From Lachnospiraceae bacterium (GTDB lineage: Bacteria; Bacillota; Clostridia; Lachnospirales; Lachnospiraceae), in assembly GCA_024699645.1 (NCBI GenBank), contig JAILPE010000103.1, forward strand, positions 1-63,023: a stretch of DNA of 63,023 nt, read 5' to 3'. The notes under the pieces are model-generated. The model was not told the DNA's origin and made no database searches. It worked only from the letters and a program-made list of their open reading frames with translations. Positions 10,916 to 61,016 of this stretch are shown one piece after another; positions within the stretch are counted from its first letter, which is position 1; every line of letters starts with the position of its first letter. The position numbers and the translations under genes are program-made.

Positions 10916-11040
10916 TTCCGGGTTGTGTTTCAGGTAACCGTTATCATTTCCCGGTTGTCTTTCGGGTAACCGTACAATTTCCCGGTTGTCTTTCGGATAA
11001 CCGTACAATTTCCCGGTTGTCTTTCGGGTAACCGTTACAG
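10916..11040. repeat. Four tandem copies of a 31-bp unit spanning a stop codon
   Basis: Copies begin at 10916, 10948, 10979 and 11010; the last three differ at only a few bases. The unit (core CCCGGTTGTCTTTCGG) can fold by pairing CGGTT with AACCG. The last copy includes the TAA stop of the histidine kinase, so the array begins inside the gene tail and fills the spacer to the response regulator. Confidence 0.9.
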
Positions 11041-12537
11041 AAGGTCTTCCAGTTCTTCCGTCTGTTCGAGTACCTCATCGGTTTTTTCCTTTCTCGTGTT
11101 AAGAAGAAGGGAAAATGCTTTCTTTGTAAGATCGGGATTGTAGCTTGCGATAAGCTGTTTTATCGTCGTCGCGTACCCCTCCGCTTTTTCCCATGCACCG
11201 AGCTCGGCGCATATCGAGAGCCTCTCGAGATGCTCTCTGAGTTCTTTCATATCCGCCTCTTCCTTAGGAATATATAGCTGAATGCCCTGCGGGGAACCTG
11301 TCAACGTACTGAACGAACCTCCGCGGTCGTTTTCACCGCTTCCGAGAAGTTCATCCTCTTCCGACTCGTCCTCCTGGACCATTGTATTTTCAAAAACATG
11401 AGAATATTCCGACTTGCCTTGCGGGAAGTTTATTAGATCTCCGCGTTTTGTTCCGAGCTTGAGCTTGACCGAGAAAGCAAAAGTACTTCCTTTTCCCTTT
11501 TCGCTTTCAACGTTTATGGTCCCTCCCATCATCGCCGCAAACTGCCTTGTGATTGAAAGTCCGAGGCCTGTTCCTCCGTATCTTCTCGTAATCGACCCGT
11601 CAACCTGTGAAAAGCTCTTAAACAATTTGTCTTTTTCCTCCGGCGAGATACCTATACCCGTGTCTATGACCATAAAAAGCAGCTCTACGCTGTCTTTGTC
11701 CGCGCGTGTTGCTGTTATATCAAGTCCGACATATCCCGTACTCGTGAATTTTATGGCGTTTGATAAAAGGTTATTGAGTATCTGACCGAGTCTGAGTTCG
11801 TCTCCGATAACAGAATCCGGTACCTTTCCGACAATATTGACGATAACCTTGAGTCCTTTTTCGACGGCACTCGAGATCTGAAGCCTCAGTACATCGTTTA
11901 TCACGTTCGTAAGACTTATTTCTCTTTCTTCAAGCGTAACCTTGCCCGCTTCTATTTTTGCATAATCGAGGATATCATTGATTATCTTTGTCATGTTGTC
12001 GCAGCTATGAAGAACTATCTTTACACATTCCTGCTGTTCGACATTAAGAGGTGTTCTCTTGAGGTCTTCAATAAGGCCTTTGATACCGTTTATAGGAGTT
12101 CTCAGCTCATGAGTAATGTTTGCGGTAAACTGATCCTTCATGCGGTTTGCTTCTTCCGCATCTGCAAGGACCTTCTTGTTGGCACGCTCATCATCATAAT
12201 GCTGTTGATCGTTCTCCGCATATGCGACATGGTATTCCGCGTCTTCATCAAGCTTTTTTATCGTGAGCTTGACCGGATAGCATGTGTTGTTGCTTCTGTA
12301 TGCGAATGTACGTTTTTCTTTGACCGAGCGATTCGGCATGATTATACCCTTTTCGTCTGCCAAATGGATCATTCTCGGAAAAATCGAAGATATATTGACT
12401 TCGTCAAAGGATTTATACCCGAGTTCATCCTTTGCGGCTTCGTTGTGGTAGATGATCTTTCCGTTCCCATCAAACAAAAAAACAGCCTCTCCGACACCGT
12501 CGAGCAGTCTTCTGTATGTTTCTGATTCCTGTTTCAC
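11035..12537 (-). CDS. Cytoplasmic PAS-domain sensor histidine kinase
   Basis: No membrane segment is visible. With the chosen GTG start the PAS domain is at about residues 5-110, the HisKA helix with His 143 in ITHELRTPINGIKG, and the HATPase with N box NLLSNAIKFT and G boxes DTGIGI and GTGLGLSIT. About 130 further residues form an acidic linker and a helical tail. An ATG at 12666 would add 43 residues, but these are encoded by the 34-bp tandem repeats and have no good ribosome site; GTG at 12537 has AAGGA ten bases ahead. The HD-GYP regulator downstream is the likely phosphorylation partner. Confidence 0.88.
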   Translation of the reverse strand: MKQESETYRRLLDGVGEAVFLFDGNGKIIYHNEAAKDELGYKSFDEVNISSIFPRMIHLADEKGIIMPNRSVKEKRTFAYRSNNTCYPVKLTIKKLDEDAEYHVAYAENDQQHYDDERANKKVLADAEEANRMKDQFTANITHELRTPINGIKGLIEDLKRTPLNVEQQECVKIVLHSCDNMTKIINDILDYAKIEAGKVTLEEREISLTNVINDVLRLQISSAVEKGLKVIVNIVGKVPDSVIGDELRLGQILNNLLSNAIKFTSTGYVGLDITATRADKDSVELLFMVIDTGIGISPEEKDKLFKSFSQVDGSITRRYGGTGLGLSITRQFAAMMGGTINVESEKGKGSTFAFSVKLKLGTKRGDLINFPQGKSEYSHVFENTMVQEDESEEDELLGSGENDRGGSFSTLTGSPQGIQLYIPKEEADMKELREHLERLSICAELGAWEKAEGYATTIKQLIASYNPDLTKKAFSLLLNTRKEKTDEVLEQTEELEDLL

Positions 12538-12580
12538 GGTCCACCCATCCTTTCCGTATTGAAGCGGACATTGCCGATCC

Positions 12581-12682
12581 GCCTCGTTCCAACCACGCCA
12601 AACAATATGATCATGCCTCGTTTCAACCTCATCGGGCAATATGATCATGCCTCGTTTCAACCTCATCGGACAATATGATTAT
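12581..12682 (-). repeat. Three tandem 34-bp repeats in the kinase leader
   Basis: Copies begin at 12581, 12615 and 12649 and end in CAATATGATxAT. The last two differ at two or three positions. They lie between the promoter at 12681-12709 and the kinase start, so they make up most of a ~140-base 5' leader. Confidence 0.9.
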
Positions 12683-12709
12683 TATACTTCACTGTTTGAA
12701 CATAGTAAA
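12681..12709 (-). promoter_or_regulatory. Candidate promoter of the histidine kinase operon
   Basis: Perfect TATAAT with a weak -35 (TTTACT) at 17 bases on the minus strand. Its -10 touches the end of the 34-bp repeat array. Confidence 0.55.
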
Positions 12710-12764
12710 GCAAGCCCCGTTCACAAAATTTTATGTCAGTCATACCGTCATGCGTGCACTGTAC

Positions 12765-12793
12765 TTGTAAAGAAATATGCAATCAAGTATAAT
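12765..12793 (+). promoter_or_regulatory. Promoter of the BTAD regulator gene
   Basis: TTGTAA and TATAAT with a 17-base spacer, 33 bases before the start codon; divergent from the kinase promoter. Confidence 0.65.
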
Positions 12794-12826
12794 TAACGGG
12801 TATATTCCCGAAAGGAACCGTATTTT

Positions 12827-14035
12827 ATGATGGATAACACGATCTATGTAACGACCCTCGGAGATTTTTCGATCAAATGCAATAAAAATATTGTATCCGA
12901 TTCTATAAACCGGGCCTACAAACCCCGTAATTTCCTTGCATATCTTCTTGTCAACAAGAACAAGGAGATCCTTTCGAGTGAGGTAGCCGAGTTGATATGG
13001 GACGAGAAGAGTGAAAGCAGCGCACGTGGATCCATCAAGGTGCTTGTTCACCGTGTCCGTGCATTTCTCGCGCCTCTCGCAAACAACAGCGACTTTACGC
13101 CAATCTCATTTAAAAAAGGAATCTTTACATGGAATTATCCCGAAAACACGGTTCTTGATTACGAAGTATTTGAAGATCTTCTTCAACGCGCCCACGGAAA
13201 GAACATATCGGATACACGCCGCATCGAACTATATCAGGAAGCCCTTGCGCTTTATAAAGGTAACTTTCTTCACACAAACAAATCTACCTGGACCGAGTCG
13301 ATCCGTAACAGACTTCATACTGCTTATGTGAATGCTGTATGCGAAATGGTCGAACTCTGTTATCGTCAAGCCAAGTATCCTTTAGCCGTTGCCGCATGCC
13401 AAAGGGCTCTCTATATCGAAAAGAACGACGAAACGCTCTATTACCATCTGATCAAGTCGATGTACCTCGCAGGTGACCGCCGGGAAGCCCTCGAAAAGTA
13501 TCACGAGACCACCGAAGTTTTCTACAAAGAATTCGGTATTACTCCCTCGAACGAGATCAAGCTTCTGTATCGCGAGATAACAAAAGCTCTTAATGTGGCC
13601 GAAAACAGTATACTCTCCGTTCAGGCAGAACTCAGGGAATCATTCGGAAGTACAGGTGCGTTCTTCTGTGAATACGAGATTTTCAAAGACATTTATCAAT
13701 TAACGGAACGCGGTTGCAGGCGAAGCGGTGAGACGGCATTTCTCTGTCTTCTCACTCTCTTTTCCGACATTGACGACTCCGTCGTTCCTCAGGATATAAA
13801 GCATTACAACCGCTGTATGGACGAACTCAAACATGTCGTTCAGGAAACGCTTCGAAGACGCGATGTCTATACGCGTTACAGCCTTACCCAGTATCTGATC
13901 CTGCTAAACGACGTTACTATGGAAAATGCTTTCCTGATCACCGAAAGGATCGAGCGTTCGTACAAACGGCTCCATCCCGTAAAAGATGTAAAACTGACTT
14001 CAAAGATCGCCGCTATCGATGTCACCGATATTTAA
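12827..14035 (+). CDS. SARP/BTAD-type transcriptional regulator with degenerate GGDEF-like tail
   Basis: A winged-helix OmpR/SARP-like DNA-binding domain is at about residues 5-95 (VTTLGDFSIKCN, then GSIKVLVHRVRAFL). A BTAD helical domain follows at about 105-255 (LDYEVFEDLLQRA, DETLYYHLIKSMYLAGDRREALEKYHE). The last ~125 residues (about 275-400) are homologous to the tail of the facing REC-HD-GYP-GGDEF protein and look like a GGDEF fold in which the signature is lost (RRDVYTRYSLTQYLILL). AAAGGAA precedes the ATG; a second ATG follows at once. Its stop codon overlaps that of the convergent small membrane protein. It probably activates genes nearby; the target is unknown. Confidence 0.85.
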   Translation: MMDNTIYVTTLGDFSIKCNKNIVSDSINRAYKPRNFLAYLLVNKNKEILSSEVAELIWDEKSESSARGSIKVLVHRVRAFLAPLANNSDFTPISFKKGIFTWNYPENTVLDYEVFEDLLQRAHGKNISDTRRIELYQEALALYKGNFLHTNKSTWTESIRNRLHTAYVNAVCEMVELCYRQAKYPLAVAACQRALYIEKNDETLYYHLIKSMYLAGDRREALEKYHETTEVFYKEFGITPSNEIKLLYREITKALNVAENSILSVQAELRESFGSTGAFFCEYEIFKDIYQLTERGCRRSGETAFLCLLTLFSDIDDSVVPQDIKHYNRCMDELKHVVQETLRRRDVYTRYSLTQYLILLNDVTMENAFLITERIERSYKRLHPVKDVKLTSKIAAIDVTDI

Positions 14036-14280: not shown

Positions 14281-14282
14281 GA

Positions 14283-17033: not shown

Positions 17034-18359
17034 ATGGATCTATTCGAATATTCAAGTTCACAGTCACGTGAAAAGGAGTCACCTCTTGCCTCGCGCATGA
17101 GACCCTCAACTCTCGACGAGATAGTCGGGCAGCAGGATATCATCGGTAAAGACAAGATGCTTTATCGTGCTATAAAAGCCGACCGATTAAGCTCCGTGAT
17201 CTTTTACGGTCCTCCCGGAACCGGTAAGACCACACTTGCAAAGGTTATAGCCAATTCCACGAGCTGTGAATTCAAACAGATAAATGCAACCTGCGCCGGT
17301 AAGAAAGATATGGAAGACGTCGTCGAAGAAGCCAAGAAGACCTACGGCGGTTTTGGAAAGCGTACCATTCTTTTCATCGACGAGATACACAGATTTAATA
17401 AAGGCCAGCAGGACTATCTCCTCCCGTTTGTGGAAGACGGCACGATCATCCTTATCGGCGCCACAACAGAGAATCCCTATTTTGAGGTTAACAGCGCTCT
17501 CATCTCGAGATCTTTGATCTTCGAGCTTCACGCATTATCCGCAGACGATATAAAACAGCTGCTGATGCGTGCCGTTTCCGATAAAGAAAAAGGCCTCGGC
17601 GGTTTCAATCTCAAATTGACGCCCGAAGCTCTTGATTTTATTGCCGACAGTGCAAACGGAGATGCCAGAAACGCCCTTAACGCCATAGAGCTTGCGGCAC
17701 TCACAACATCAAAAAATGAGGACGGCTACGTTCATGTCGACCTCGACGTCGCCGCTGAATGTATAAGGAAAAGAGCGATCAATTACGACAAGAACGGCGA
17801 CTCTCATTACGACACGATCTCCGCATTTATCAAAAGCATGCGCGGATCGGATCCCGATGCCGCTGTTTATTATCTTGCGCGAATGCTCTATGCCGGTGAA
17901 GACATAAAATTCATTGCCAGAAGGATCATGATCTGTGCTGCCGAAGATGTCTCCCTTGCAGACCCCAATGCTCTCACTGTAGCTGTGGCCGCCGCCCAGG
18001 CAGTAGAGAGGCTCGGCATGCCCGAAGCGAGGATCGTGCTCTCGGAGGCCGCAATATACGTTGCAACCGCTCCCAAGAGTAATTCTGCGATCTGCGCCAT
18101 AGATGACGCCCTGAGCGAAGTAGCGTCAAAGATTACACCGAGAGTTCCCGCACACCTCATGGACGCCCATTACAAAGGGGCGGCCAAGCTCGGTCACGGT
18201 CTCGATTACGTTTATCCTCATGACTATGAAGATCATTATTATCCGCAGCAATACCTTCCCGACGAACTGAAAGGTGCTTCCTTCTATCACCCCGGAAATC
18301 TCGGTCACGAATCGATCACTCAAAAAAGACTTGACGAAATTAAGAAGAAATATAGTTAA
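17034..18359 (+). CDS. rarA: Replication-associated recombination protein A (AAA ATPase)
   Basis: Clamp-loader-like AAA+ ATPase (RarA/MgsA/WRNIP1 family) acting at stalled replication forks. Walker A GPPGTGKTT is at residues 59-67, Walker B ILFIDEIHRFN at 112-121, sensor 1 IGATTENP near 143, and the C-terminal oligomerisation region includes DAHYKGAAKLGHG. At 441 residues it has the normal family length. It is a single-gene unit with its own promoter, facing the class A PBP gene; the short gap between the two stops is filled by a tandem repeat with GC dyads. Confidence 0.96.
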   Translation: MDLFEYSSSQSREKESPLASRMRPSTLDEIVGQQDIIGKDKMLYRAIKADRLSSVIFYGPPGTGKTTLAKVIANSTSCEFKQINATCAGKKDMEDVVEEAKKTYGGFGKRTILFIDEIHRFNKGQQDYLLPFVEDGTIILIGATTENPYFEVNSALISRSLIFELHALSADDIKQLLMRAVSDKEKGLGGFNLKLTPEALDFIADSANGDARNALNAIELAALTTSKNEDGYVHVDLDVAAECIRKRAINYDKNGDSHYDTISAFIKSMRGSDPDAAVYYLARMLYAGEDIKFIARRIMICAAEDVSLADPNALTVAVAAAQAVERLGMPEARIVLSEAAIYVATAPKSNSAICAIDDALSEVASKITPRVPAHLMDAHYKGAAKLGHGLDYVYPHDYEDHYYPQQYLPDELKGASFYHPGNLGHESITQKRLDEIKKKYS

Positions 18360-18428
18360 CCCCCGACCCGGGGGAAACCGTCAGCCAAAAAGGACGGTTA
18401 ACCCTCAACTCGGGGGGAAGAATCAGCC
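18354..18428. repeat. Two imperfect 33-bp repeats between convergent gene ends, period 42
   Basis: Copies begin at 18354 and 18396; both read GTTAACCC ... GGGGG ... TCAGCC. Each contains a CCCCC / GGGGG dyad. The first begins in the rarA stop, the second ends on the TCA that is the PBP stop codon (minus strand TGA). The dyads may also serve as terminators for both genes, although no T run is present. Confidence 0.8.
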
Positions 18429-22058: not shown

Positions 22059-22095
22059 TTATACTCCTAATTTAATTCTTTTTCTTACCGACCAA

Positions 22096-22153
22096 GTCCG
22101 CCGTTTCCGCGTCCGTAATCTCTCGTCCGCCGTTTCCACATCCGTCATCTCAT
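22096..22153. repeat. Two tandem 29-bp repeats spanning a stop codon
   Basis: Copies begin at 22096 and 22125 and share GTCCGCCGTTTCC, then TCCGTxATCTC. The second copy includes the TGA stop of the upstream hypothetical gene (22145-22147), so the first copy is a displaced duplicate of that gene's end. Confidence 0.8.
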
Positions 22154-22663
22154 TGCGCTTTCCATTAAAACGAAAAGTTCGAGCGCACTTCTGAAACTCA
22201 TCTTTTTCTCTCCTTCGACCCATGTCACGGTTCCCTGCCATGTGGCGTTTTGTCTGTAGAGAACATTTACCAGGAAGGTCGCCTTTTTCCCTGCGTAGCG
22301 GTCATGATCGTAATACACTCTTTTTTTCGCCTGCTCACTCTCATGATCGGTCAATGTTGTTCCGTTCATGTTTCTTCCGGCATTTTCACCCCGGGTGATT
22401 TCGCCATCACCCGCTGCAATACCTGCTCTGTTCTCTTCATCTTCCACACGGTCCTTATTTTCTTCATCAAAGGATCTGTATTCAAAAAACGGATGGGGAA
22501 CACCTGCGGTTTCCAGTGCTTTGTTCATTTCAACGATAAGTCCCTGCATGCTCTTAAATAAACGCTTATCGGGATAAACAGGGACATACAGGCTTCCTTC
22601 AAACAGATCCCCGTCAAACTCATCTATACATATTCCAAATGTTCCGAAATCTTTAATTCTCAT
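22145..22663 (-). CDS. Conserved-looking hypothetical protein
   Basis: 172 residues, no signal peptide or membrane segment. I do not recognise the family. The first ~60 residues (IKDFGTFGICIDEFDGDLFEGSLYVP) and the last ~65 (YYDHDRYAGKKATFLVNVLYRQNATWQGTVTWVEGEKKMSFRSALELFVLMESA) look ordered. A charged, low-complexity linker at about 68-105 separates them. The end (TWQGTVTWVEGEKKMSFRSALEL) resembles proteins that bind small regulatory ligands but I cannot name one. GGGAGG precedes the ATG. It lies upstream of the YigZ gene on the same strand. Confidence 0.7.
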   Translation of the reverse strand: MRIKDFGTFGICIDEFDGDLFEGSLYVPVYPDKRLFKSMQGLIVEMNKALETAGVPHPFFEYRSFDEENKDRVEDEENRAGIAAGDGEITRGENAGRNMNGTTLTDHESEQAKKRVYYDHDRYAGKKATFLVNVLYRQNATWQGTVTWVEGEKKMSFRSALELFVLMESAMR

Positions 22664-26249: not shown

Positions 26250-27356
26250 TTACGGTACTACATCAGGCCACTTCGTGTGATCATAATCGTGTGAATTGCC
26301 GTTTGCATGCGAGTACTCCATCAACTGCGAGTCCCCCCACATGAAGAAATACGGCTTATCCTTTCTCGGACAGGTATCATAATGGTACCATCCCTCTCCG
26401 AGATCCACAAGATTCCAAAAATGTCTTGAAGTCCTGATCATATCATTTTTAAATCCTGCCCTTGAAAGGAGTTCCTTTGACGCACATGCATAAACGTAGC
26501 AGTCTCCCCTTTCGTACATGAGGCCTTCCCATGCGGCCGATATGTCATCGTTCTGTTCAAAATAATTAACGTAATGAATATTCTTCTTTGTCCATTTAAA
26601 AAGCTTTTCGAGTGCTTCGATGTCACGCGGTGCATCTGCGAGAACCTCTTCGATTATCTCATCGGCCTTCGCGTCAAGCATCTCCTGCGTTACTTCCTCG
26701 CGTTCTCTTACAACTACGGACACCTCACATGAAGCGGTGTTTCCCGCCGCATCGGTCGCCGTATATGTCAAAGGATACTCTCCCGCTTCTTTGAGATTAA
26801 CCTTTGAAGAATCGATCGTCAGAACGGGTTCCTCTCCGCTGTCATCGGTAAGTACCACGCCTCCTCTGTAGGAGACCGTATCTCCGATGTAAACGAGATG
26901 GCTGCGATACTCCTTAAAAACAGGCGGTGTCGTATCGACTGCCGGTTCGGGCTGTGCCTCTGCCGTGTTGCCCTCGGGTTCGGGCTGTGCCTCTGCCGTG
27001 TCGCCCTCGGGTTCGGGCTGTGCCTGTGCCGTGTCGCCCTCGGGTCCGGGCTGTGCCTGTGCTGTATCGGCATCCGGTCCGGTCTGTGCCTGTGCTGTAT
27101 CGGCATCTGATCCGGTCTGTGTTTGTGCCGAGTCGGACGTTGGTCCGGGCCGGGATGCCGTCTCTTCCCCGCTCGATTCGGGATCGCTCTGTTCGGTCAT
27201 CGTCTCCGCCACAGCATCAGGCTGTATGTTTACCAAACTTTTGTCTGTCGATCCTCCCGTTCCGCCCTGCTCCGACGAGCAGCCCGTTATCATGCTTACC
27301 GCGAATACCGGGAGCAAACATAAACATAAAAGCTTTTGTATTTTTGAAGTATTCAT
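26250..27356 (-). CDS. Lipoprotein with Ig-like and transglutaminase-like domains
   Basis: Exported lipoprotein (lipobox SMITGC at 21-26). A disordered linker of six 11-residue repeats (residues 77-142) is followed by an Ig-like domain (144-218: YIGDTVSYRGGVVLTDDSGEEP ... TYTATDAAGNTA). The C-terminal ~130 residues are transglutaminase-like with a possible triad Cys in ERGDCYVYA, His in SRHFWNL and Asp in HYDTCP. Such proteins hydrolyse or crosslink at the cell surface, but the substrate is unknown. No ribosome site precedes the ATG; it overlaps the stop of a 12-residue leader frame in an ATGA, which suggests coupled translation. The sugar-sensor GGDEF gene follows. Confidence 0.85.
   Translation of the reverse strand: MNTSKIQKLLCLCLLPVFAVSMITGCSSEQGGTGGSTDKSLVNIQPDAVAETMTEQSDPESSGEETASRPGPTSDSAQTQTGSDADTAQAQTGPDADTAQAQPGPEGDTAQAQPEPEGDTAEAQPEPEGNTAEAQPEPAVDTTPPVFKEYRSHLVYIGDTVSYRGGVVLTDDSGEEPVLTIDSSKVNLKEAGEYPLTYTATDAAGNTASCEVSVVVREREEVTQEMLDAKADEIIEEVLADAPRDIEALEKLFKWTKKNIHYVNYFEQNDDISAAWEGLMYERGDCYVYACASKELLSRAGFKNDMIRTSRHFWNLVDLGEGWYHYDTCPRKDKPYFFMWGDSQLMEYSHANGNSHDYDHTKWPDVVP
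26931..27128 (-). repeat. Six coding repeats of 33 bp (11 residues)
   Basis: In-frame repeats of the type AQAQPGPEGDT within the lipoprotein linker. Inner copies are almost identical at the DNA level and outer ones diverge, as in an expanding and decaying array. The opposite strand shows long open frames over the same stretch that are only by-products. Confidence 0.9.
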
Positions 27357-31235: not shown

Positions 31236-31248
31236 CCGTCAATTCCTT

Positions 31249-31342
31249 TCGATCAACGCCTATCGTTGGTCTGTTTTTCAGATCAACCCTCGGTCGCTCT
31301 CTTATCCTTTCGATCAACGCTTATCGTTGATCCTGATTTTTA
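31249..31342. repeat. Three 30-32-bp tandem repeats with a dyad, running into a gene end
   Basis: Copies begin at 31249, 31281 and 31311 with GATCAAC. The third forms a perfect 8-bp dyad (GATCAACG / CGTTGATC), the first the same with one change. The TPM stop (31340-31342) follows, and its last codons (TAACGCCTGTC on the plus strand) resemble the next unit, so the array appears to begin in the gene tail. Confidence 0.8.
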
Positions 31343-32662
31343 ACGCCTGTCTGCAGGATTATATTCCTGCCCGTCACCCGAGGAAGGTGAGAAATCACTC
31401 GGGAATACGAAACCGCTCATATCCTTTATTCCGCTTTCCGAATTATTTCTGTTTCCGTTCCCTGCATTCGCAGGTCCGACGTAATTGTTGTTCCCTGCAT
31501 TCGCGGGGCCACCGTTGTTATTGTTCCCGGCGTTCGCGGGACTGCCGTAATTATTGTTTCCGGCGTTCGCTGAATCGTTATAATTACTTTTCCCTTTATT
31601 GAGACCCGAATAGGGGTTCTTGTTGGCAGACCAGCGGTACTGTGATCCCTGTGTTGAGATCTTGCTGGTATCGATGTTTCCGGACTGACTCAGATTACGT
31701 CCCGCCTGTCCCGAGTTATATGATTTTCTTTTAAAACCTCCGGGTTGACCGGGTTGACCGGGATTTCTTCCGCCTCCCGCCTTTCCGCCCTGTCCGGACC
31801 ATTTCTGACTGTTCTGACCGTTGTTGGAGTACTTGTTCTTCTTTTTGCTCGATTTGACAAGTATGATAATCCCGCCGATGAGCAGAACGACAAAGATCGA
31901 CGATCTTCCTACGAACTTAAACACCGTAGATACCAATCCTGTTGCCGTCTTTACGATGCCTGAGACAACCTTCATTCCGCCGTTAACAGTCTTTTCAACG
32001 ATATTGTAACCGCCCTCGTCGTTTTCCTGCACATACGAACTCTGAAGATTAGCGAATGCCGAGGGGTCGCTTATGATCCTCGAAATAGCGTCATATGCTT
32101 CCCTGACACCATCCGAGATACCGTCCGCATCGCCGTTACGAACCTTTTCAAAGCCGCTCTGAAGCGCAGCGCTGACGCTCTTGATCTCAGCTTCGCTCAT
32201 ATCGTTGAACACCTTGCTTTCGGGTTCAAAGAAATAATAATTCTCACTTGTTGTATCAATGAGCATGACCGCACCGTCTCCCGCTTCGAGACCGAGCCTG
32301 TCATAAATCCTTTCTGCTGTTTTCGCCAGGTCTTCAGGCGTTGTCACAGCTCCCTCCGCAAACGTTTCCGTAGCGACCGCAACAACTCCCTCATCACGGA
32401 CTGCCATATTGGCAATGATATTTACGATCTCTTTCGTAGCGGCGGAATCAATAACGTTCGCATTATCCACGACAAACTTATCGCAAATCTCCGTGAGTTC
32501 GGCAAAGCCGTCTTCATCCCCGTATTCCTTTATCATCCTCTGAATGGACGACGGTTCGGGTTGATCATAATCATTACCTTTGATCTGTCCTATAGTGACG
32601 GCCGTAGCTATTGACAAAACCAGTGTGGTGATAGCCACACCTATCTTCTTAAAAAACTTCAT
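31340..32662 (-). CDS. TPM-domain membrane protein with Asn/Gly-rich tail
   Basis: Signal or anchor segment at about residues 5-25, a TPM (TPM_phosphatase) domain at about 45-195 (DNANVIDSAATKEIVNIIANMAVRDEGVVAVATETF), a membrane segment at about 257-275 (SSIFVVLLIGGIIILVK) and a Gly/Asn/Ser-rich end that includes four ~10-residue PANAGNNNYG-like repeats. The family includes phosphatase-like proteins and photosystem repair proteins; here the role is unknown. It closes the xpaC-telA-TPM operon. Confidence 0.85.
   Translation of the reverse strand: MKFFKKIGVAITTLVLSIATAVTIGQIKGNDYDQPEPSSIQRMIKEYGDEDGFAELTEICDKFVVDNANVIDSAATKEIVNIIANMAVRDEGVVAVATETFAEGAVTTPEDLAKTAERIYDRLGLEAGDGAVMLIDTTSENYYFFEPESKVFNDMSEAEIKSVSAALQSGFEKVRNGDADGISDGVREAYDAISRIISDPSAFANLQSSYVQENDEGGYNIVEKTVNGGMKVVSGIVKTATGLVSTVFKFVGRSSIFVVLLIGGIIILVKSSKKKNKYSNNGQNSQKWSGQGGKAGGGRNPGQPGQPGGFKRKSYNSGQAGRNLSQSGNIDTSKISTQGSQYRWSANKNPYSGLNKGKSNYNDSANAGNNNYGSPANAGNNNNGGPANAGNNNYVGPANAGNGNRNNSESGIKDMSGFVFPSDFSPSSGDGQEYNPADRR
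31442..31573 (-). repeat. Four in-frame 30-33-bp repeats in the TPM protein tail
   Basis: DNA encodes SANAGNNNYG, SPANAGNNNNGG, PANAGNNNYVG and PANAGNGNRNN in a row. The copies differ mostly at wobble positions, as in a young expansion. Confidence 0.85.
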
Positions 32663-33916: not shown

Positions 33917-34627
33917 TTACTTCATTTGATTTTTTATTATACTGTCATCTCCTGCCAGCCCCTCCTGTGCAAGAAGACTTTCCATAACGCTTATGTCGGA
34001 AGATATATCCATTGCCTCATCCGAGTAAAGTGCGTCGAGCTGTCTGTCAAAAGCATCAAGCGCTTTATCCATCATATTCTCGACCTTACCTTTGGTACCG
34101 TCAATGTTTATGCCCGATATCCCCGCTTCATCCATTCTGTCGTATGCATTAAGGAGTTTCAGGGTTGTGGGCAGGTAATAATTGAAGAATCTTCGTACCT
34201 GCGTTTTTTTCGCCGGATGTTCGACAACATAGCTTACTATCTTCGATGTAACATCTTCGAGATGATCGATCTGATCTGAGAGCTTTTCGTCCGGTATCGC
34301 ATCATTTAAACGTTTCATCTCGGCGATAGCAAGCTCTTCTTCATCAAGCATTTTGTCGATAGTGTCATCTCCCGTACGAGGTCTCTTGTGTTCGGACACG
34401 TCAACTTTCTTTTCCGTTTCCTCGGGTTCCGCAGCTGCGATCGTTTCCGGCTCTTCCTCCGGTTTTCCCTTTCCCGCATACCCCAGAAGAAGCATGACTC
34501 CCGAAATCGCGGATAATATAAGGAAATCGCTGACCTTGTTAAGCGGAAGCAGGATTGACCACCCCAGCCATGTTGCGGCCGTCAGATATAAGGGAAGTAC
34601 CCTTTTTTTTCTTTCTTTTTTTGCCAT
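33917..34627 (-). CDS. XpaC-like (5-bromo-4-chloroindolyl phosphate hydrolysis) protein
   Basis: 236 residues: two short hydrophobic segments at about residues 13-28 and 33-50, a charged linker, and a helical domain at about 80-225 with the XpaC pattern (DTIDKMLDEEELAIAEMKRLNDAIPDEKLSDQIDHLEDVTSKIVSYV). XpaC proteins are almost always encoded next to TelA, as here. The historic enzymatic name is doubtful. AGGGGAA precedes the ATG. It opens a three-gene operon. Confidence 0.88.
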   Translation of the reverse strand: MAKKERKKRVLPLYLTAATWLGWSILLPLNKVSDFLILSAISGVMLLLGYAGKGKPEEEPETIAAAEPEETEKKVDVSEHKRPRTGDDTIDKMLDEEELAIAEMKRLNDAIPDEKLSDQIDHLEDVTSKIVSYVVEHPAKKTQVRRFFNYYLPTTLKLLNAYDRMDEAGISGINIDGTKGKVENMMDKALDAFDRQLDALYSDEAMDISSDISVMESLLAQEGLAGDDSIIKNQMK

Positions 34628-34638
34628 ATTCCCCTCTG

Positions 34639-34712
34639 TACAGACCTATTGAGCCTGTCTTTAATTTCTTTTAGTACAGACCGTGTGAAGCCTGTCTTTA
34701 ATATCTTTTTTT
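34639..34712. repeat. Two tandem 36-bp repeats upstream of xpaC
   Basis: Copies begin at 34639 and 34675 and share TACAGACC ... GCCTGTCTTTAAT. Each can fold by pairing AGAC with GTCT. They lie just ahead of the xpaC ribosome site, so they are in the leader if transcription starts at 34832 or further. Confidence 0.8.
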
Positions 34713-35911: not shown

Positions 35912-35970
35912 CCGCTGATCTCTCCTATAAAGCTTTCCCATGCACATGGGCTTGTTTCCCCGCGCGAAGT

Positions 35971-50775: not shown

Positions 50776-50899
50776 GCCGATATCGTATATCGCAGCGTTG
50801 TCGGCAGATCGTTTTTCCTTCCCTTTTTTCAGGCTCTCTCAAGGCTGTGAAGTACCCGTCAATTGAATAACCGAGGATTCCCGCTTATAGTCCTAAGGT

Positions 50900-52135: not shown

Positions 52136-52861
52136 ATGCTTGAATTAAAGAACATTTCATATGCCGTCAATGACGATGACGGCTCAAAGGAAATTCTCAA
52201 AAACATCTCACTCGAACTGTCCGACGATAAGTTCTATGTCGTAACCGGACCGAACGGAGGCGGCAAATCCACACTTGCCAAGATCATTGCAGGAATAATC
52301 CATCCGAGCGAAGGAAAGATCATTTTTGACGGAAAAGACATTACGGATATGAATGTTACCGAACGTGCAAAAGCCGGTATCAGTTTTGCTTTTCAACAGC
52401 CCGTCAGATTTAAGGGAATAACCGTTAAGGATCTGATCTCCCTTGCGGCAGGCAACGATGTTTCTTTTAACCAATCCTGTGATTACCTCGCACGCGTCGG
52501 ACTGTGTGCCCGCGACTATATCGACAGAGAAGTGAACGCATCTCTTTCGGGCGGCGAGCTCAAACGTATAGAAATTGCCATGACTCTTGCGCGAAAGACC
52601 AAGATCACGCTTTTCGACGAACCCGAAGCCGGTATCGATCTTTGGAGCTTTACCAACCTCATCAAAGAATTCGAGAAGCTCCATTCTGATCTTCACGGAA
52701 TGATCCTGATCATCTCGCATCAGGAAAGGATCATAAACATTGCGGATGAACTTATACTGATCGCAGACGGAGAACTGAAAGGTAAAGGAAGCCGCGAAGA
52801 GATATTACCCGAATACGAAGGTCTGACCATGGGCTGCCGTTTCACCGCATCCGGACAATAA
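52136..52861 (+). CDS. SufC-like ABC ATPase of a minimal Fe-S assembly system
   Basis: 241-residue SufC-type ATPase: Walker A GPNGGGKST at 38-46, signature LSGGELKRIEI at 138-148, Walker B ITLFDEPEAGIDLWSF at 158-173, with the SufC-type DLWS after the aspartate. Together with the adjacent SufB-like gene it forms a two-gene set without sufD, sufS or sufU, like the described SUF-like minimal system (SmsCB). GGAG lies close before the ATG. Its last codons are part of a 21-bp tandem duplication that continues past the stop. Confidence 0.88.
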   Translation: MLELKNISYAVNDDDGSKEILKNISLELSDDKFYVVTGPNGGGKSTLAKIIAGIIHPSEGKIIFDGKDITDMNVTERAKAGISFAFQQPVRFKGITVKDLISLAAGNDVSFNQSCDYLARVGLCARDYIDREVNASLSGGELKRIEIAMTLARKTKITLFDEPEAGIDLWSFTNLIKEFEKLHSDLHGMILIISHQERIINIADELILIADGELKGKGSREEILPEYEGLTMGCRFTASGQ

Positions 52862-52890
52862 GTACTGAAATCCGGACAATTAATACGGAT
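52849..52890 (+). repeat. Two 21-bp repeats spanning the sufC-like stop
   Basis: ATCCGGACAAT occurs at 52849 (within the last codons) and at 52870 (after the stop), a 21-base period that keeps the reading frame. The stop TAA is in the first copy. Confidence 0.75.
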
Positions 52891-52931
52891 AACAGACATT
52901 ATACGAATATATACAAGGAGCAATTTAATAA

Positions 52932-53849
52932 ATGGACGATATTCAAAAAAGGTTGATCGCCGAAGTTGCGGATCTTCACACCGTCCCCGACGGAGCCTAC
53001 ACACTCCGCGCCAACGGACAGAGTGTTGATATGAGATCATCCGCAAACATAATCATTGAAAAAAAGACAGATAAACCGGGCATTGACATCTATATAAAAG
53101 ACGGCACCAAGCATGAAAGCATGCATATGCCGGTCATTATCAGTGAAACAGGTCTTACCGAAGTTGTCTATAACGATTTCCATATCGGTAAAGACTGTGA
53201 TGTTACGATCATCGCGGGCTGTGGAATCCACAACTGCGGTGACCAGCTTTCGCAACATGACGGTGTCCACACATTCGATGTCGGTGAACGTTCCAAAGTC
53301 CGCTATGTTGAAAAGCACTACGGGGAGGGCGACGGAAACGGAGAAAGAGTCCTTAATCCCACCACCATCATTCATCTCAAAAAAGACAGTCTCCTCGACA
53401 TGGATTCGGTTCAGATAAAGGGCGTTGATTCGACCCTCAGGAAGTCGATCGCAACGATCGAAGAAGGCGCAACTCTCGTGATCAAGGAAAAGATCATGAC
53501 TCACGGCAAGCAGCATGCCGAAACAGACTTTACAGTCGACCTTAACGGTGAAGGCTCAAGTTCGAGACTTATTTCCAGGTCAGTTGCGCGAGATCAGTCC
53601 ACTCAGCTCTTCCGCTCCAACATAAACGGTAATAACCGCTGCCACGGTCATTCCGAGTGCGACGGCATTATCATGGACGAAGGAAAGGTCGCTGCCATCC
53701 CCGAGATCAATGCAAACCACGTAGAAGCAACTCTCATCCACGAAGCAGCCATCGGAAAGATCGCCGGCGAGCAGCTCACAAAACTCATGACGCTCGGCCT
53801 TACGGAAAACGAAGCCGAAAACATGATCATAAACGGTTTTTTGAAATAA
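52932..53849 (+). CDS. SufB/SufD-like scaffold of a minimal Fe-S assembly system
   Basis: 305 residues, much shorter than SufB (~480) and SufD (~420), and close in size to archaeal SmsB. A right-handed beta-helix core is suggested by the repetitive beta pattern (GIDIYIKDGTKH, TIIAGCGIHNCGDQLSQHDGVHTF). The C-terminal signature RCHGHSECDGIIMDEGKV ... HEAAIGKIAGEQL holds the conserved cysteines, Glu and His of the family. It receives clusters together with the SufC-like ATPase encoded 70 bases upstream. AAGGAG precedes the ATG. The end of the gene is duplicated in frame downstream. Confidence 0.88.
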   Translation: MDDIQKRLIAEVADLHTVPDGAYTLRANGQSVDMRSSANIIIEKKTDKPGIDIYIKDGTKHESMHMPVIISETGLTEVVYNDFHIGKDCDVTIIAGCGIHNCGDQLSQHDGVHTFDVGERSKVRYVEKHYGEGDGNGERVLNPTTIIHLKKDSLLDMDSVQIKGVDSTLRKSIATIEEGATLVIKEKIMTHGKQHAETDFTVDLNGEGSSSRLISRSVARDQSTQLFRSNINGNNRCHGHSECDGIIMDEGKVAAIPEINANHVEATLIHEAAIGKIAGEQLTKLMTLGLTENEAENMIINGFLK

Positions 53850-53935
53850 GACCCGGCAGATAACATAGACATTAACGGATTTTTGAAATAAAACCCGGCA
53901 GACAACATAGACATTAACGGATTTATAAATAAAAC
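53832..53935 (+). repeat. Three 42-bp repeats running through the sufB-like stop
   Basis: Copies begin at 53832, 53874 and 53916 with AACGGxTTT and, in the first two, the following GAAATAAxACCCGGCAGA. The period is 42 bases (14 codons), so the frame is kept and each of the first two copies encodes NGFLK-stop. The gene stop is in the first copy. Confidence 0.9.
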
Positions 53936-53960
53936 AATATAGTTTTTATAAATAAAAAGA

Positions 53961-53986
53961 CCCGAGTTAAAAACTTCGGGTTTTTT
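53961..53986 (+). terminator. Terminator of the sms operon, probably bidirectional
   Basis: CCCGAGTT / AACTTCGGG arms are followed by TTTTTT on the plus strand and by TCTTTTTATT on the minus strand, so it can also end the tRNA-Leu transcript arriving from the right. Confidence 0.85.
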
Positions 53987-53989
53987 CGT

Positions 53990-54072
53990 GCCGGCGGCGG
54001 GGGTCGAACCCGCACGTCCTCGCGGACACAAGATTTTGAGTCTTGCACGTCTGCCAATTCCATCACGCCGGC
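53990..54072 (-). tRNA. tRNA-Leu (anticodon CAA)
   Basis: The 83-base minus-strand sequence has acceptor arms GCCGGCG / CGCCGGC, D arm with AATTGGCAGAC, anticodon arm CAAGA-CTCAAAA-TCTTG (anticodon CAA), a long class II variable arm (TGTCCGCGAGGACG) and T arm GGGTTCGACCCCC. CCA is not encoded. Confidence 0.95.
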
Positions 54073-54092
54073 TTATTTGTCACAACATCGCA

Positions 54093-54121
54093 ATTTTATC
54101 AAATCTCACGCATATATTCAA
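54093..54121 (-). promoter_or_regulatory. Promoter of tRNA-Leu
   Basis: TTGAAT and TAAAAT with a 17-base spacer on the minus strand, about 20 bases before the tRNA 5' end. Confidence 0.75.
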
Positions 54122-54186
54122 GAACTATTTATCTCAGCGCGAACTTACCCGGGGATCACGAAGAATGTTGCGTGAACGAGAACCGA

Positions 54187-54978: not shown

Positions 54979-55019
54979 CAGTACTCCTTTCCGGATGCAA
55001 CCTTAAAAAATCACATTTA

Positions 55020-55117
55020 TCATCCTGTACCGGCTTTGAGAAATTTCTCACCTCATCATCCTGTATGCTTTGAGGAATCCCTACGTAAGCTCATCCTATT
55101 ATAGCTTTGTGGAATAC
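55020..55117 (-). repeat. Three ~35-bp units spanning the tyrS end
   Basis: Plus-strand units begin TCATCCTxTA at 55020, 55056 and 55091 and continue GCTTTGxGGAAT or GCTTTGAGAAAT. The unit at 55091 is the last codons and stop of tyrS. The unit at 55020 includes a perfect GAGAAATTTCTC dyad. Confidence 0.75.
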
Positions 55118-56311
55118 TTTCTTGCCCTTCTTGATCTTAACGCCTGCCTCGAGCTGTTCCTTAGTGATGCGCTCATTGATCGAGGTAACTTTTTCACCGT
55201 CAACACTCACACCGCCCTGCTCGATAAGACGTCTTCCCTCGCTCCTCGAAGGAATGAGGGCACATGCCTCAAGAAGTTCCATAATGGTCATTCCGTCAGC
55301 GGCCTTGTCTGCGGGGATCTGCGTTGTAGGCATGTTGGAATCATCGCCGCCACCCGCAAAAAGTGCTCTTGCCGCCGAAAGAGCCTTGTCGGCTTCCTCT
55401 TTGCCATGAACGAGTTCTGTAAGCTCATGAGCGAAGATCTCCTTCATCTCGTTGATCCTCTCTCCGGGCCACTGCTCCATCTCATGGATCTTCTCGAGAG
55501 GAAGGAATGTAAGCATCTTAAGGCACTTAACAACATCGGCGTCATCGATATTTCTCCAGTACTGGAAGAATTCGAAGGGAGTTGTCTTCTCGGGATCAAG
55601 CCATACTGCACCTTTGGCGGTCTTGCCCATCTTCTTACCTTCGCTGTTGAGAAGAAGCGTAACTGTCATAGCATAGGCGTCTTTACCGGTCTTCTTACGG
55701 ATAAGCTCGGTACCCCCGAGCATGTTCGACCACTGGTCGTCACCGCCGAACTGCATGTTGCAGCCATAGTGCTCGTTAAGGTATAAGAAGTCGTAGGACT
55801 GCATTATCATGTAGTTAAACTCAAGGAAGGAAAGACCCTTCTCCATACGCTGCTTATAGCACTCTGCCCTGAGCATCGTATTAACCGAGAAGCAGGCACC
55901 GACATCACGAAGGAGGTCAATGTACTTAAGGTCAAGGAGCCAGTCCGCATTGTTAACCATGATTGCCTTATCCTCGCCGAATTCGATAAAGCGCTCCATC
56001 TGCTTCTTGAAGCAATCGCAGTTGTGCTGAATAGTTTCAGGCGTCATCATAGCTCTCATCTCGCTCTTGCCTGTGGGATCGCCGATATATCCGGTTCCTC
56101 CGCCTATAAGCACTACAGGCTTGTTTCCTGCCATCTGGAGTCTCTTCATAAGGCAAAGAGCCATGAAGTGACCAACGTGGAGCGAATCCGCAGTGGGATC
56201 GAAACCGATATAGAATCTGGCTCCTCCGTTATTGATAAGTTCTCTGATCTTATCCTCGTCAGTAACCTGAGCAATAAGACCTCTCTCGACAAGTTCTTCG
56301 TAAATCTGCAT
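55091..56311 (-). CDS. tyrS: Tyrosyl-tRNA synthetase
   Basis: Class I synthetase charging tRNA-Tyr. From the ATG at 56311 (GGAGAG seven bases ahead) the protein is 406 residues; the longer frame adds 16. HVGH in DSLHVGHFMALCLM (about 45) and KMGKTAKG (the KMSKS equivalent, about 226) are the catalytic motifs. The C-terminal ~70 residues hold an S4-like RNA-binding domain (SRSEGRRLIEQGGVSVDGEKV). A T-box leader with a Tyr specifier precedes it. An exported lipoprotein gene and tRNA-Leu follow on the same strand. Confidence 0.97.
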   Translation of the reverse strand: MQIYEELVERGLIAQVTDEDKIRELINNGGARFYIGFDPTADSLHVGHFMALCLMKRLQMAGNKPVVLIGGGTGYIGDPTGKSEMRAMMTPETIQHNCDCFKKQMERFIEFGEDKAIMVNNADWLLDLKYIDLLRDVGACFSVNTMLRAECYKQRMEKGLSFLEFNYMIMQSYDFLYLNEHYGCNMQFGGDDQWSNMLGGTELIRKKTGKDAYAMTVTLLLNSEGKKMGKTAKGAVWLDPEKTTPFEFFQYWRNIDDADVVKCLKMLTFLPLEKIHEMEQWPGERINEMKEIFAHELTELVHGKEEADKALSAARALFAGGGDDSNMPTTQIPADKAADGMTIMELLEACALIPSRSEGRRLIEQGGVSVDGEKVTSINERITKEQLEAGVKIKKGKKVFHKAIIG

Positions 56312-56333
56312 CTTTTCTCTCCTTTTCATATAT

Positions 56334-56372
56334 AAAAAATCCCCCTGCTTCCGACTCATCGGAAACAGAGGG
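56334..56372 (-). terminator. T-box terminator hairpin of tyrS
   Basis: CCCTCTG / CAGGGGG arms with a TTCCGA / TCGGAA inner stem and a TTTTTT run on the minus strand, overlapping the antiterminator core. It is the alternative structure of the tyrS T-box. Confidence 0.88.
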
Positions 56373-56670
56373 CGAAAATTCTCGCGGTACCACCTCTTGT
56401 TCGGATCTGCCTCACGGCAAACCCCTCATCACGTGCCAACACACGCTGTTCGCTGTATCGGGCTAACCCGTCCGTCCCTACTCGGTGCAAAACCTGATCT
56501 TTTCATCTTCCGCAAATGCTTTTTCCTAAAAGCATCCATACCCTTTGGGGTCGGCAGCTCGGGAATGTATTCGTCATGAACTTTCCACGGATTCACACCA
56601 ACCATCCGCTCTCTGCCGGGTAAAGCATCAAGACTACTTCTTTCCTTCAACGCCTCGTTTTATGTCGTGG
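56342..56670 (-). promoter_or_regulatory. T-box leader of tyrS (tyrosine-specific)
   Basis: On the minus strand the conserved T-box core AGGTGGTACCGCG lies at 56383-56395 (plus strand CGCGGTACCACCT) and is followed by a terminator hairpin. Stem I carries AGAGAGCGGATGGTTGGTGTGAATCC. The specifier loop reads GAATACATT with TAC (Tyr) at 56567-56569. This is the classical uncharged tRNA-Tyr antitermination switch. It explains the open frame seen inside it. Confidence 0.93.
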
Positions 56671-56700: not shown

Positions 56701-56713
56701 GCATAAAAATCAG

Positions 56714-56947: not shown

Positions 56948-57028
56948 AGTAGGCTCCTTTCGGTTGTGTACTTCATGAATTACTTATATTCCATTATACA
57001 GCTTTCGCGGAAAAAGTAAACAATTCAT

Positions 57029-58222: not shown

Positions 58223-58249
58223 AATGATCTCCTAACTTTCCATCACGAC

Positions 58250-60742
58250 TCACGCTGCCGGATTGATCGTTAAACTGTAACCCGTGCTCAAAACAAATCC
58301 GTTATCAAAGATAAATCTGAGTGATTTTGTTGTCGTCTGATTTACATCAATACCATTGATGAGCTTGTTCGAAAGGTCAAGTGTCACATCCGCTCCGACC
58401 TTGCTGATGTTAGTGCAAATGTCAGTGTCTCCCCATTTAACGCTTATGAGAGAAACGTCATAATCGCTCTTAAATATCTTAAGCGTTATTGTCTTATCTA
58501 CATGAGTTACTGTAGTTGTTGTTGTCGTATTCCCGCCGTCCGAACTCGTTGTAACTTCATCTGTCAGAGTAAGTGAGCCTTCCGTTATTGTCCACGAATA
58601 AGGGCCGCCGACTATAGTTGCCGTTTCCTTGAACGTGATACTTGCCACATTCTTCAGGATCTCTCCGTTGTTGAGGCGTATCGACAATTCAACGGGTGTA
58701 TTTCTGTCATCGATAAGATTTTCCATTGTTGCGGTATTCACTGTAATGACCGCCATAGCATTCTGTTCGTTATAATCGTTTACCGTATCCGCATATTCTA
58801 CCGTGAAGCCGTTGTCACAGGAGAAATTCACGTTGTCGGCGCAGATCGATGTTATCGCAACTCTCTCATCGGTAAACTCGCCGCTAACATTCGAAGGGAT
58901 ATATCTTGTTCCAAGATCGAGCCTGATCCTGAATTCACTGATATCTCTTGTCGATCCCGCTATCCTCTCAAACGATCCCGTGTATTCGATCGGATCGGTA
59001 TCGGGGTTATAATCCTGCCATCCGAGTTTCTGCGCTATCTCGATCATGTCGCCGCGCTTTGTCGATCCGGACGGATTGTTAACCTTCGTTGCGGGAAGGA
59101 TGTTAATTCCCACACCCTTCTCACTGCTGCTTTCAAATGCCTTCGTGCTGTCCTGAAGTGTTATGTAAGCAAGCATCTTTCTTGTCTTTGTATCGCTCGC
59201 AAATCTGTCGAGCTTGGCGGTCGAAGTGATCGTCGTTGTAATAATGTACTTCTCGTCTTCGGTCGCGAGCGGATCGGTATTGACCCTTACGCTGCTTCTG
59301 ATCTCATCTGCCGAACGAGTAAGTGTATCTCTTGTTGTTCCTATCGAAATGTAATCAACAAATTTGATCTCCGAAACGACGCTCTCGGTAGGTGACAAAA
59401 GTTCGAAGCTCAGATATCCCTCGGGATTGTTGCCGTTACATCTGCCTGCAACAGTTGTAAGCCATGTAAGTTCTCCGTTTGCCGTCGATACCTCACCGGG
59501 ATATCTTACTGTTCCCACGAAATATGCGGGTGATGCAAGGCTGTATCCGCTCTCACCGAGCGAAAGGACTGCTTTTCTTCTCACATACACTTTGCTTCCG
59601 TCATCAACTTTATTGTTGTCACGGCTTATAGGAACCGGAGTTGTCGAATTGATCGTCGTCCACTTGATGTCTTCCACAGAGTCGATCGTTATACCGTCCT
59701 CAAGATCGCTCGAATTGATAATGCAGTATTCGTAAGGAGTCTGCGTTCCTGCGAAAGGAACCCTGATCTCGAATGTTGTCGAGCTTGTGTATGCGATGGT
59801 GATGTTTTCTTTCTGGGTATTTGTAAGATCGGTCTGTGCAGGTATCTCAACTGTGGTTACATTTGACACCTGCTTTGAAGCCGTTGCTTTTGTTCTGAAC
59901 TGAATGTATGTCACCTCTGTCTCATTCGTTCCCTCGGCATTGACCATCGAAAGGCTTGCGAGCTGTGAAAGAGGCATATTGTCCGATTTGCTTATATCAT
60001 TCCATTCCGAGCTGATCGGGTTACCCTTCTCGTCAGCCATTCTGTACTGCATGTCATTATTGACAGAAACGGTGAGTGTTGAGTCATCGATCTTGATGTT
60101 CGGTGCCGCGATCTTCTTGGGAACACTCACATAGATTTCTTTTCCGGGGCGCTTTCCGGGATATGCGCTTCCTGTTCCGTTAATGCCTTTTGTTCTGAAC
60201 GCGATAATCGCGCCGTAAGCGCACATGGAATCGAGCTGTTGCTTGAATACCTCGTCACTCGGTACATCGTTCCATTCGATACTTTCCTTTTTTCTCCATT
60301 CAACGGATCCGGTCTCACCGGTAAATACAACACGTCCCGTTGAAGTGTTATAGGAAGCTCTCAGTCCTGCCGACTGCTTAGGGATTATAACGCTTATGGG
60401 CTCAGACGAGATATCACCCTTAAGTGAAAGGGTATAATCCTTTGTCATACCGATCCAGGAGATGTCCATCTCAACGGTGTTGTCATATGCCTTATCAGCG
60501 GGGATGGCTTCCCACTTTCTTCTCCTTGAATCGGAGATAAGAAGGACATTGTCTTCGCTGCTCATCTGCACGGTGATCGTGCTCTTTCCGTAATCGATGC
60601 ACTTGACACTCAGGCTTTGAGCCGCCTGTGCCTTGACCTCACCGATGAGAAGTATCATTACAACAAAAACAGCCGACAGGGCTATCTTAACCCGCAGGCT
60701 GATATTTATCCTTCCGCTCATATTCTCTGTTTTGTTCATCAT
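58250..60742 (-). CDS. Large secreted protein of the same family
   Basis: 830 residues from the ATG at 60742, where AAAGGGG lies eight bases ahead (the open frame could start 27 bases upstream). Signal peptide about residues 13-38. The first ~290 residues are paralogous to the downstream protein; the rest contains several beta-rich, repeat-like modules of unknown type. No transmembrane end or sorting signal is apparent, so it would be released or bound non-covalently. It opens the pair. Confidence 0.85.
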   Translation of the reverse strand: MMNKTENMSGRINISLRVKIALSAVFVVMILLIGEVKAQAAQSLSVKCIDYGKSTITVQMSSEDNVLLISDSRRRKWEAIPADKAYDNTVEMDISWIGMTKDYTLSLKGDISSEPISVIIPKQSAGLRASYNTSTGRVVFTGETGSVEWRKKESIEWNDVPSDEVFKQQLDSMCAYGAIIAFRTKGINGTGSAYPGKRPGKEIYVSVPKKIAAPNIKIDDSTLTVSVNNDMQYRMADEKGNPISSEWNDISKSDNMPLSQLASLSMVNAEGTNETEVTYIQFRTKATASKQVSNVTTVEIPAQTDLTNTQKENITIAYTSSTTFEIRVPFAGTQTPYEYCIINSSDLEDGITIDSVEDIKWTTINSTTPVPISRDNNKVDDGSKVYVRRKAVLSLGESGYSLASPAYFVGTVRYPGEVSTANGELTWLTTVAGRCNGNNPEGYLSFELLSPTESVVSEIKFVDYISIGTTRDTLTRSADEIRSSVRVNTDPLATEDEKYIITTTITSTAKLDRFASDTKTRKMLAYITLQDSTKAFESSSEKGVGINILPATKVNNPSGSTKRGDMIEIAQKLGWQDYNPDTDPIEYTGSFERIAGSTRDISEFRIRLDLGTRYIPSNVSGEFTDERVAITSICADNVNFSCDNGFTVEYADTVNDYNEQNAMAVITVNTATMENLIDDRNTPVELSIRLNNGEILKNVASITFKETATIVGGPYSWTITEGSLTLTDEVTTSSDGGNTTTTTTVTHVDKTITLKIFKSDYDVSLISVKWGDTDICTNISKVGADVTLDLSNKLINGIDVNQTTTKSLRFIFDNGFVLSTGYSLTINPAA

Positions 60743-60901
60743 GCTCATATCCCCTTTATATGTATCCATGAAGCCTTAACGCTTTTTCTTACCAACTTGG
60801 AAGCGATCTGTCTGCTACCGGCAAATTTCAAATCTTACAATAAATATATCGGACATTTTGACGATGACTTTACCCTTTTTTACAATTTTTTTCACTTATC
60901 C

Positions 60902-61016
60902 AAAGGTCACTCCCGCATCCCTTTCTTCTCTTTTACCGCAAAGGTTACACCCGCATTCCTTTCTTCTCTTCTGTTTCGAAAGTTACCTCCGTATCCCTTT
61001 TCTTTCTTCTGCTCCG
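60902..61016. repeat. Three imperfect 38-39-bp tandem repeats between divergent genes
   Basis: Copies begin at 60902, 60940 and 60979 and share AAAGGTTAC-CCGCAT-CCTTTCTTCTCTT; the third is the most diverged and a fourth is partly visible. The 60743-61107 gap otherwise holds only the promoter of the MraY-family gene. Confidence 0.8.

Follow-up and report, generated by a model that had tools for sequence, protein, structure and literature searches.

Eleven intergenic spacers of one bacterial contig carry tandem repeats, nearly all with a unit of their own. How does such a collection arise, and is it kept for a purpose? The contig (C17; 63,023 nucleotides), called the window here, was analysed over its whole length of 63 kb. 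It belongs to a Lachnospiraceae genome (G000) of 2.13 Mb in 123 contigs, 93% complete. An earlier note on this DNA suggested that slippage-generated duplication of gene tails with retained hairpins would fit the repeats. Our preferred answer, to which we give a probability of about two in three, is that they are minisatellite-like arrays which stem from a raised rate of tandem duplication of approximately 28-56 bp and are filtered by selection.

Tandem Repeats in the Window

Two methods of detection were used. A sensitive direct-repeat score compares each spacer with its own dinucleotide shuffles, and Tandem Repeats Finder (TRF) was run with standard scoring, arrays in the genome sample being counted at period 15-60 and score at least 50. 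Genes were called by a codon-model caller, and their starts are therefore approximate.

At offsets of 15-60, with 300 shuffles each, ten of the eleven loci listed earlier show direct repeats at p≤0.013. At the remaining one, 31249, the same offsets give p=0.475, and p=0.002 is reached at offset 61 when offsets up to 90 are admitted. Since this locus is significant only at offset 61, its period is 61. Direct repeats beyond shuffles are thus present at all eleven loci, while the period range of 21-42 bp given earlier does not extend to 31249. When all 36 window spacers of 25-450 bp were tested (offsets 15-70, 100 shuffles), p≤0.02 was found in eleven, exactly those named, where about 0.7 would be expected by chance; the other 25 revealed no direct repeat at this level. 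TRF calls six of the eleven (10916, 12581, 22096, 34638, 53820, 60902) and misses 2112, 18354, 31249, 52849, and 55020, which are short or degenerate with two to three copies. The loci are as follows.

Locus 2112: 2113-2171, no strand assigned; degenerate repeat of period 32 with a strong dyad; not called by TRF
Locus 10916: 10916-11035, minus strand; 31-bp unit in 3.8 copies, separating a histidine kinase gene, whose stop is at 11035, from the gene for its response regulator; TRF
Locus 12581: 12581-12679, no strand assigned; 34-bp unit in 2.9 copies upstream of the kinase gene; TRF
Locus 18354: 18355-18416, plus strand; two degenerate, hairpin-bearing copies of period 42 in a convergent spacer, reaching 5 nt into the gene that ends at 18359; not called by TRF
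Locus 22096: 22096-22151, minus strand; 29-bp unit in 1.9 copies, taking in the stop codon of gene 22145-22663; TRF
Locus 31249: 31244-31329, no strand assigned; period 61 with a GATCAACG/CGTTGATC dyad, no overlap with a gene end; not called by TRF
Locus 34638: 34638-34709, minus strand; 37-bp unit in 2.0 copies in front of gene 33917-34627; TRF
Locus 52849: 52849-52880, plus strand; short repeat of period 21 over the end of ABC ATPase gene 52136-52861
Locus 53820: 53820-53935, plus strand; 42-bp unit in 2.8 copies, covering the final codons and the stop codon of SufBD-family gene 52932-53849; TRF
Locus 55020: 55019-55065, minus strand; degenerate, period 36, a weaker third copy reaching the end of tyrosyl-tRNA synthetase gene 55091-56359; not called by TRF
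Locus 60902: 60902-61018, no strand assigned; 38-bp unit in 3.1 copies between divergent genes; TRF

Seven of these arrays had been described as starting in the final codons or stop codon of a gene. Six do so: the overlap is 1 nt at 10916, 5 nt at 18354, 7 nt at 22096, 13 nt at 52849, and 30 nt at 53820, and at 55020 it comes about only through the weaker third copy. At the seventh, 31249, some 10 bp separate the array from the closest stop codon. At 12581, the called kinase reading frame starts inside the array; since the protein resembles its relatives from residue 23-39 onward, the array probably lies outside the gene and the start was probably called too early. A T-box leader was observed at 56365-56659, upstream of the tyrosyl-tRNA synthetase gene.

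Units Are Private to Their Loci

The window is not special within its genome. In a sample of 515 kb (24% of G000), TRF found 41 arrays, mostly outside genes, with copy identities of 70-97%. Arrays occupy 38 of 280 spacers in a per-spacer run (37 of 280 when counted by overlap), compared with about half a spacer in shuffled sequence.

The claim that every locus has its own unit holds for nearly all units of the sample. No second site at E≤1e-3 was found in the 515-kb sample for 40 of the 41 TRF units; the single exception (in L177) contains a GGGGACGGGGGT core and has 23 bp in common with L164. The 10916 array, searched against the whole genome, returned only itself. Among the window loci, relatives in the sample were absent except for 2112, of which positions 2141-2178 have a 38-bp relative of 84% identity in L018; given this relative elsewhere in the genome, 2112 is perhaps a dispersed element.

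These data bear on the possibility that the arrays are copies of a dispersed mobile repeat of the REP type. REP-like units with the GGGGACGGGGGT core occur across species, namely in several arrays of the related genome G002 (L190), in the one own unit (L177, 1820-1886), and in one of genome G012 (L200, 3851-3907). The relative of 2112 points the same way. A Y1 (RAYT-type) transposase is typical of genomes with REP/BIME elements, and the Y1 family PF01797 has one match each in G002 and G012. Against this stand the 40 units lacking a second site and the absence of a PF01797 match in G000 and in the array-rich relative G022. Within the 24% of the genome sampled, these results refute a mobile repeat for most of the genome's own arrays, and we consider it very unlikely as a general explanation.

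A dispersed element was also seen at 50847-50896, in a divergent spacer of the window: it is about 50 bp long and has seven more copies with 80-92% identity in the 515 kb (L013, L170, L008, L014, L172, L169, L021).

Distribution among Related Genomes

The best named records for the SufBD-family protein come from Lachnospiraceae/Clostridia metagenome-assembled genomes (MAGs), with 94 and 93% identity (L042 in G021 and L043 in G022). Partial synteny with the window exists in the genus members G002, G011, and G012, and in G022. The proportion of array spacers is given below, first as TRF counts among spacers of at least 40 bp, then by the sensitive score.

G000: 37/280; 20.8%
G002: 11/82; 20.8%
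G022: 20/149; 16.0%
G011: 4/107; 14.6% (median period 61)
G012: 1/75; 7.4%
Six other genus members: 1/127; 5.1%
Other families of the order: 5/173; 2.9%
Other Lachnospirales, named loci L049-L121: 15/399; 6.0%

The last row leaves out L042-L048, which were counted separately (2/20 spacers in L042-44, 0/20 in L045-48), and the counts leave out G003, G004, and G007, which were not sampled, and G017, which gave no match. G000, G002, and G022 together (68/511) exceed G011 plus G012 (5/182; p=1.7e-5), the six other genus members (1/127; p=3.4e-6), and L049-L121 (15/399; p=3.5e-7). No difference is seen between G011 plus G012 and the other genus members (p=0.41). Once periods of up to 200 are admitted, G011 reaches 8/107, several of them of 62-70 bp, and G022 22/149.

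The arrays mark a clade, and their density is uneven inside it. In a MutS2 tree the five close species group together (100/100) without resolution inside; G000 shares 87-89% of its MutS2 residues with the others of this group, compared with 62-64% with six others. Arrays are not confined to this clade, as G015, an order-mate outside the genus, has them in 4 of 36 spacers.

Four repair genes were compared with this pattern. MutS2 is present in six of six genomes of a first set (two of these, G012 and G021, have identical hits and seem to be one genome) and in six of six others, and MutL (as two contig-end pieces in G006) and RecJ are each present in ten of ten; none of the three accounts for the distribution. 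SbcD was rejected as a cause: it exceeds the cut-off in 3 of 14 genomes (G000, G007, G010) and does not follow the arrays.

As far as they are named, the clade genomes are MAGs, which brings up an artefact of assembly. The copies of an array differ from each other, separate assemblies agree, one array is common to the window and G002, and other MAGs lack arrays. Moreover, the effect of assembly on repeats described in a review is collapse, i.e., loss (PMC6868369). An artefact is thus the least credible of the explanations considered here.

Starts Are Avoided, Stops Are Overlapped

Positions were counted for G000, G002, and G022 added together. Of 73 arrays, 30 overlap the 3' end of a gene (19.4 under random placement) and only two a 5' end (21.2 under random placement). 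Within 15 bp, 41 arrays are found at 3' ends (random 23.8) and nine at 5' ends (random 25.8). The only 5' overlap in G000 is locus 12581 with its doubtful start. By the sensitive score the contrast in the three genomes is weaker, with 38 arrays at stops and 8 at starts. The link to stop codons seen in the window hence holds on a larger scale, yet start avoidance is the stronger signal, the excess at stops being about 1.5-fold.

Selection is the probable source of this asymmetry. Few arrays would survive over start codons and leaders. Over stop codons they would be retained, since a duplication with the stop inside it does not alter the first copy, so that the gene stays intact.

Arrays Rise in Genes as Well

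Intergenic arrays of the three rich genomes have a median period of 34, those of the controls of 21 (p=1e-7). At periods of at least 28, noncoding DNA contains 56 arrays in 118 kb versus 4 in 185 kb of the controls (21.9-fold, p=8e-19), and coding DNA 38 in 889 kb versus 14 in 1270 kb (3.9-fold, p=3e-6). Part of this coding rise are in-frame 33-bp repeats observed inside two window genes (26944-27135 and 31457-31593). Multiples of three make up 97% of coding and 25% of intergenic periods in the rich genomes, and 97% and 50% in the controls. A rise in coding and noncoding DNA alike, with a frame filter in genes only, argues for a raised duplication rate rather than a spacer-specific system.

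Under raised duplication, an array would be born by local tandem duplication of about 28-56 bp through a replication error of the slipped-strand or template-switch type, and would change later by further slippage; most arrays would be young and imperfect. The density of such arrays is raised in this lineage both inside and outside genes, and selection would admit almost only multiples of three within genes and set no such constraint elsewhere. The arrays would need no function and could be neutral.

Spacer Growth and the Origin of Units

All 11 array spacers of the window are longer than their G002 orthologs, by a median of 90 bp, whereas of the other spacers 10 of 24 are longer (p=6.5e-4). 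The same holds against G011 (6/7 versus 3/14, p=0.005); against G012 the numbers are 3/4 and 7/10 (p=0.15). The spacers have thus undergone net growth. In G002, G011, and G012 there is no gap between the kinase and the regulator gene, which directly adjoin or overlap (mapped spacers of -4, -5, and -4 bp). The window has 152 bp at this junction (locus 10916), with no source visible in flanks or orthologs. New intergenic DNA thus arises where the genes of relatives leave no space between them; at this pair, it would presumably uncouple their translation.

The syntenic stretches of four relatives contain 12 significant spacers. Two of them, perhaps three, lie at array junctions of the window. The spacer 53850-54186 in G002 has the same unit as the window array 53820, shared by descent, with about 2 copies compared with about 2.8 in the window. 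At the ABC ATPase junction (52849; spacer 52862-52931), G022 carries an array of a different, 38-bp unit, and near 22059 it has a weak array. Another junction, 35912-35970, has a repeat of period 29 in G002 and of 61 in G011. For ten of the eleven loci (all but 31249), the origin of units was sought in flanks and available ortholog spacers. Matches were obtained for 53820 in G002 (p=0.005) and for 55019 in the right flank (p=0.010), together with a weak one for 22096 in the left flank (p=0.025); only 53820 clearly matches an ortholog spacer. By eye, a single copy of the 34638 unit is possible in G002, which is not significant in the ortholog-spacer test. The authors on Borg elements describe a puzzle similar to that of locus 10916, the middle of a unit often being absent from flanking partial repeats (PMC9879509).

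Such observations could also suggest a dedicated process that creates private arrays at selected sites and lengthens them, a possibility considered for Borg elements. It would agree with the clade pattern, with periods longer and narrower in range than in controls, with unit sources out of sight at most loci tested, and with two species having different units at one junction. But coding arrays rise too, no shared unit was found, and a 12-mer count (top 25 per genome) revealed no sequence common to the array spacers; the search for candidate enzymes of array formation covered PF01797. We regard this process as improbable. Independent duplication of the slippage type at each locus fits the private units, the spacer growth, and the 3'-end bias. 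To this extent the tail duplication proposed initially is supported; an outward decay of copies is not, and retained hairpins are present at some window loci. In 17 arrays free of indels, located at gene ends and drawn from four genomes, the first pair of copies is as similar as the last (identity 0.919 versus 0.932; 8 versus 9), and hairpins are no genome-wide property, as detailed next.

Folding of the Arrays

Whole arrays, taken on either strand, fold with z≤-2 at 7 of 11 window loci, compared with 13 of 60 draws from array-free spacers, the strongest being 18354, 34638 (one strand), 31249, 22096 (one strand), and 2112. Together with the location after stops, this would suit RNA 3'-end elements, i.e., terminators or stabilisers kept for their hairpins. 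Shuffling destroys the repeats, however, so that whole-array z is inflated and the test favours repeats. In a stricter test the unit was shuffled and then repeated, by which z at 10916 shrinks from -2.2 to -0.3. The 41 own TRF units give a mean z of -0.34 (longest stem 3.90 versus 3.68), 21 units of G022 -0.58, and 11 of G002 +0.36, compared with -1.23 to -1.37 for the 70 nt after array-free stops, a measure not identical in form to the unit test. The picture for the dyads noticed in many units is thus mixed: seven window loci fold better than shuffles, and the TRF units genome-wide show nothing of the kind. As the units are also private and mostly not found at orthologous junctions, we hold a role as 3'-end elements to be unlikely for the arrays in general. 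Plain hairpins with degenerate copies exist at 2112, 18354, and 31249, three loci outside the stricter test, which may form a class apart from the other arrays.

Relation to Known Repeat Systems

The closest published form is the tandem repeats of Borgs, extrachromosomal elements of Methanoperedens (PMC9879509). As in Borgs, the unit is essentially unique to its site (40 of 41 units) and arrays may begin inside a gene end (30 of 73 overlap a 3' end here). Borg copies are perfect and their units enriched in A (PMC9879509); here, copies are imperfect (70-97% identity), and A is slightly up in G000 and G022 and down in G002, hence not consistent (units 0.352/0.264/0.313, spacers 0.333/0.323/0.303 for G000/G002/G022), T being low in the units of all three. 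Clear avoidance of gene starts is a further difference from the Borg repeats as described (PMC9879509). Bacterial core genes, tRNAs, and the T-box show that the contig is a piece of bacterial chromosome, not a linear archaeal extrachromosomal element like the Borgs (PMC9879509).

With bacterial minisatellites or VNTRs the arrays share head-to-tail units of at least 20 bp, locus specificity, and intergenic location (PMC2884548). They are far denser: E. coli has 18 non-PU minisatellite loci among 1,037 variable loci (PMC2884548), whereas about one spacer in seven to eight has an array here. VNTRs also vary in copy number between strains; here, a difference in copy number is seen against the related genome G002, at 53820 (about 2.8 versus 2). 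Freshwater Planctomycetota are another bacterial lineage with numerous tandem repeats between genes, which the authors read as polymerase slippage (PMC9426551). REP elements or palindromic units resemble the arrays in size (about 30-37 bp), intergenic location, and frequent clustering, but form a single dispersed palindromic family (PMC2884548); our arrays are for the most part private and, taken together, not palindromic. Palindromy of the REP/BIME kind occurs at several window loci and not genome-wide, and dispersal was not found in the 24% sampled, the L177 unit and 2112 excepted. In the literature searched, private, stop-codon-biased arrays in a bacterial clade are not described.

If the rate is truly raised, the clade would be a natural mutator for mid-length tandem duplication. 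As close species rich and poor in arrays exist side by side (G000, G002, and G022 versus G012), its cause can be searched for by comparison. A bolder version is conceivable, although we would rather bet against it: a heritable change in one Lachnospiraceae clade, be it a variant in replication or repair or some dedicated process, would produce tandem duplications of about 34 bp chromosome-wide, as a bacterial counterpart of the Borg repeats, and the stop/start asymmetry would display selection at gene borders.

Two further observations concern the relatives. Certain 12-mers of G022, among them AAGCTTGCAACA and TTATCGCACAAA, each occur in three of its spacers (L210-L225), and by eye, similar strings are present in two G011 spacers. 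In addition, G022 and G011 contain arrays with units of 63-65 bp (L211, 11903-12090; L221, 13398-13638; L193, 11158-11357). No Rfam family was assigned to them at the gathering score; by eye, they have in common a hairpin with a GAGGAA(A/G)C core next to it, and are possibly tandem structured RNAs.
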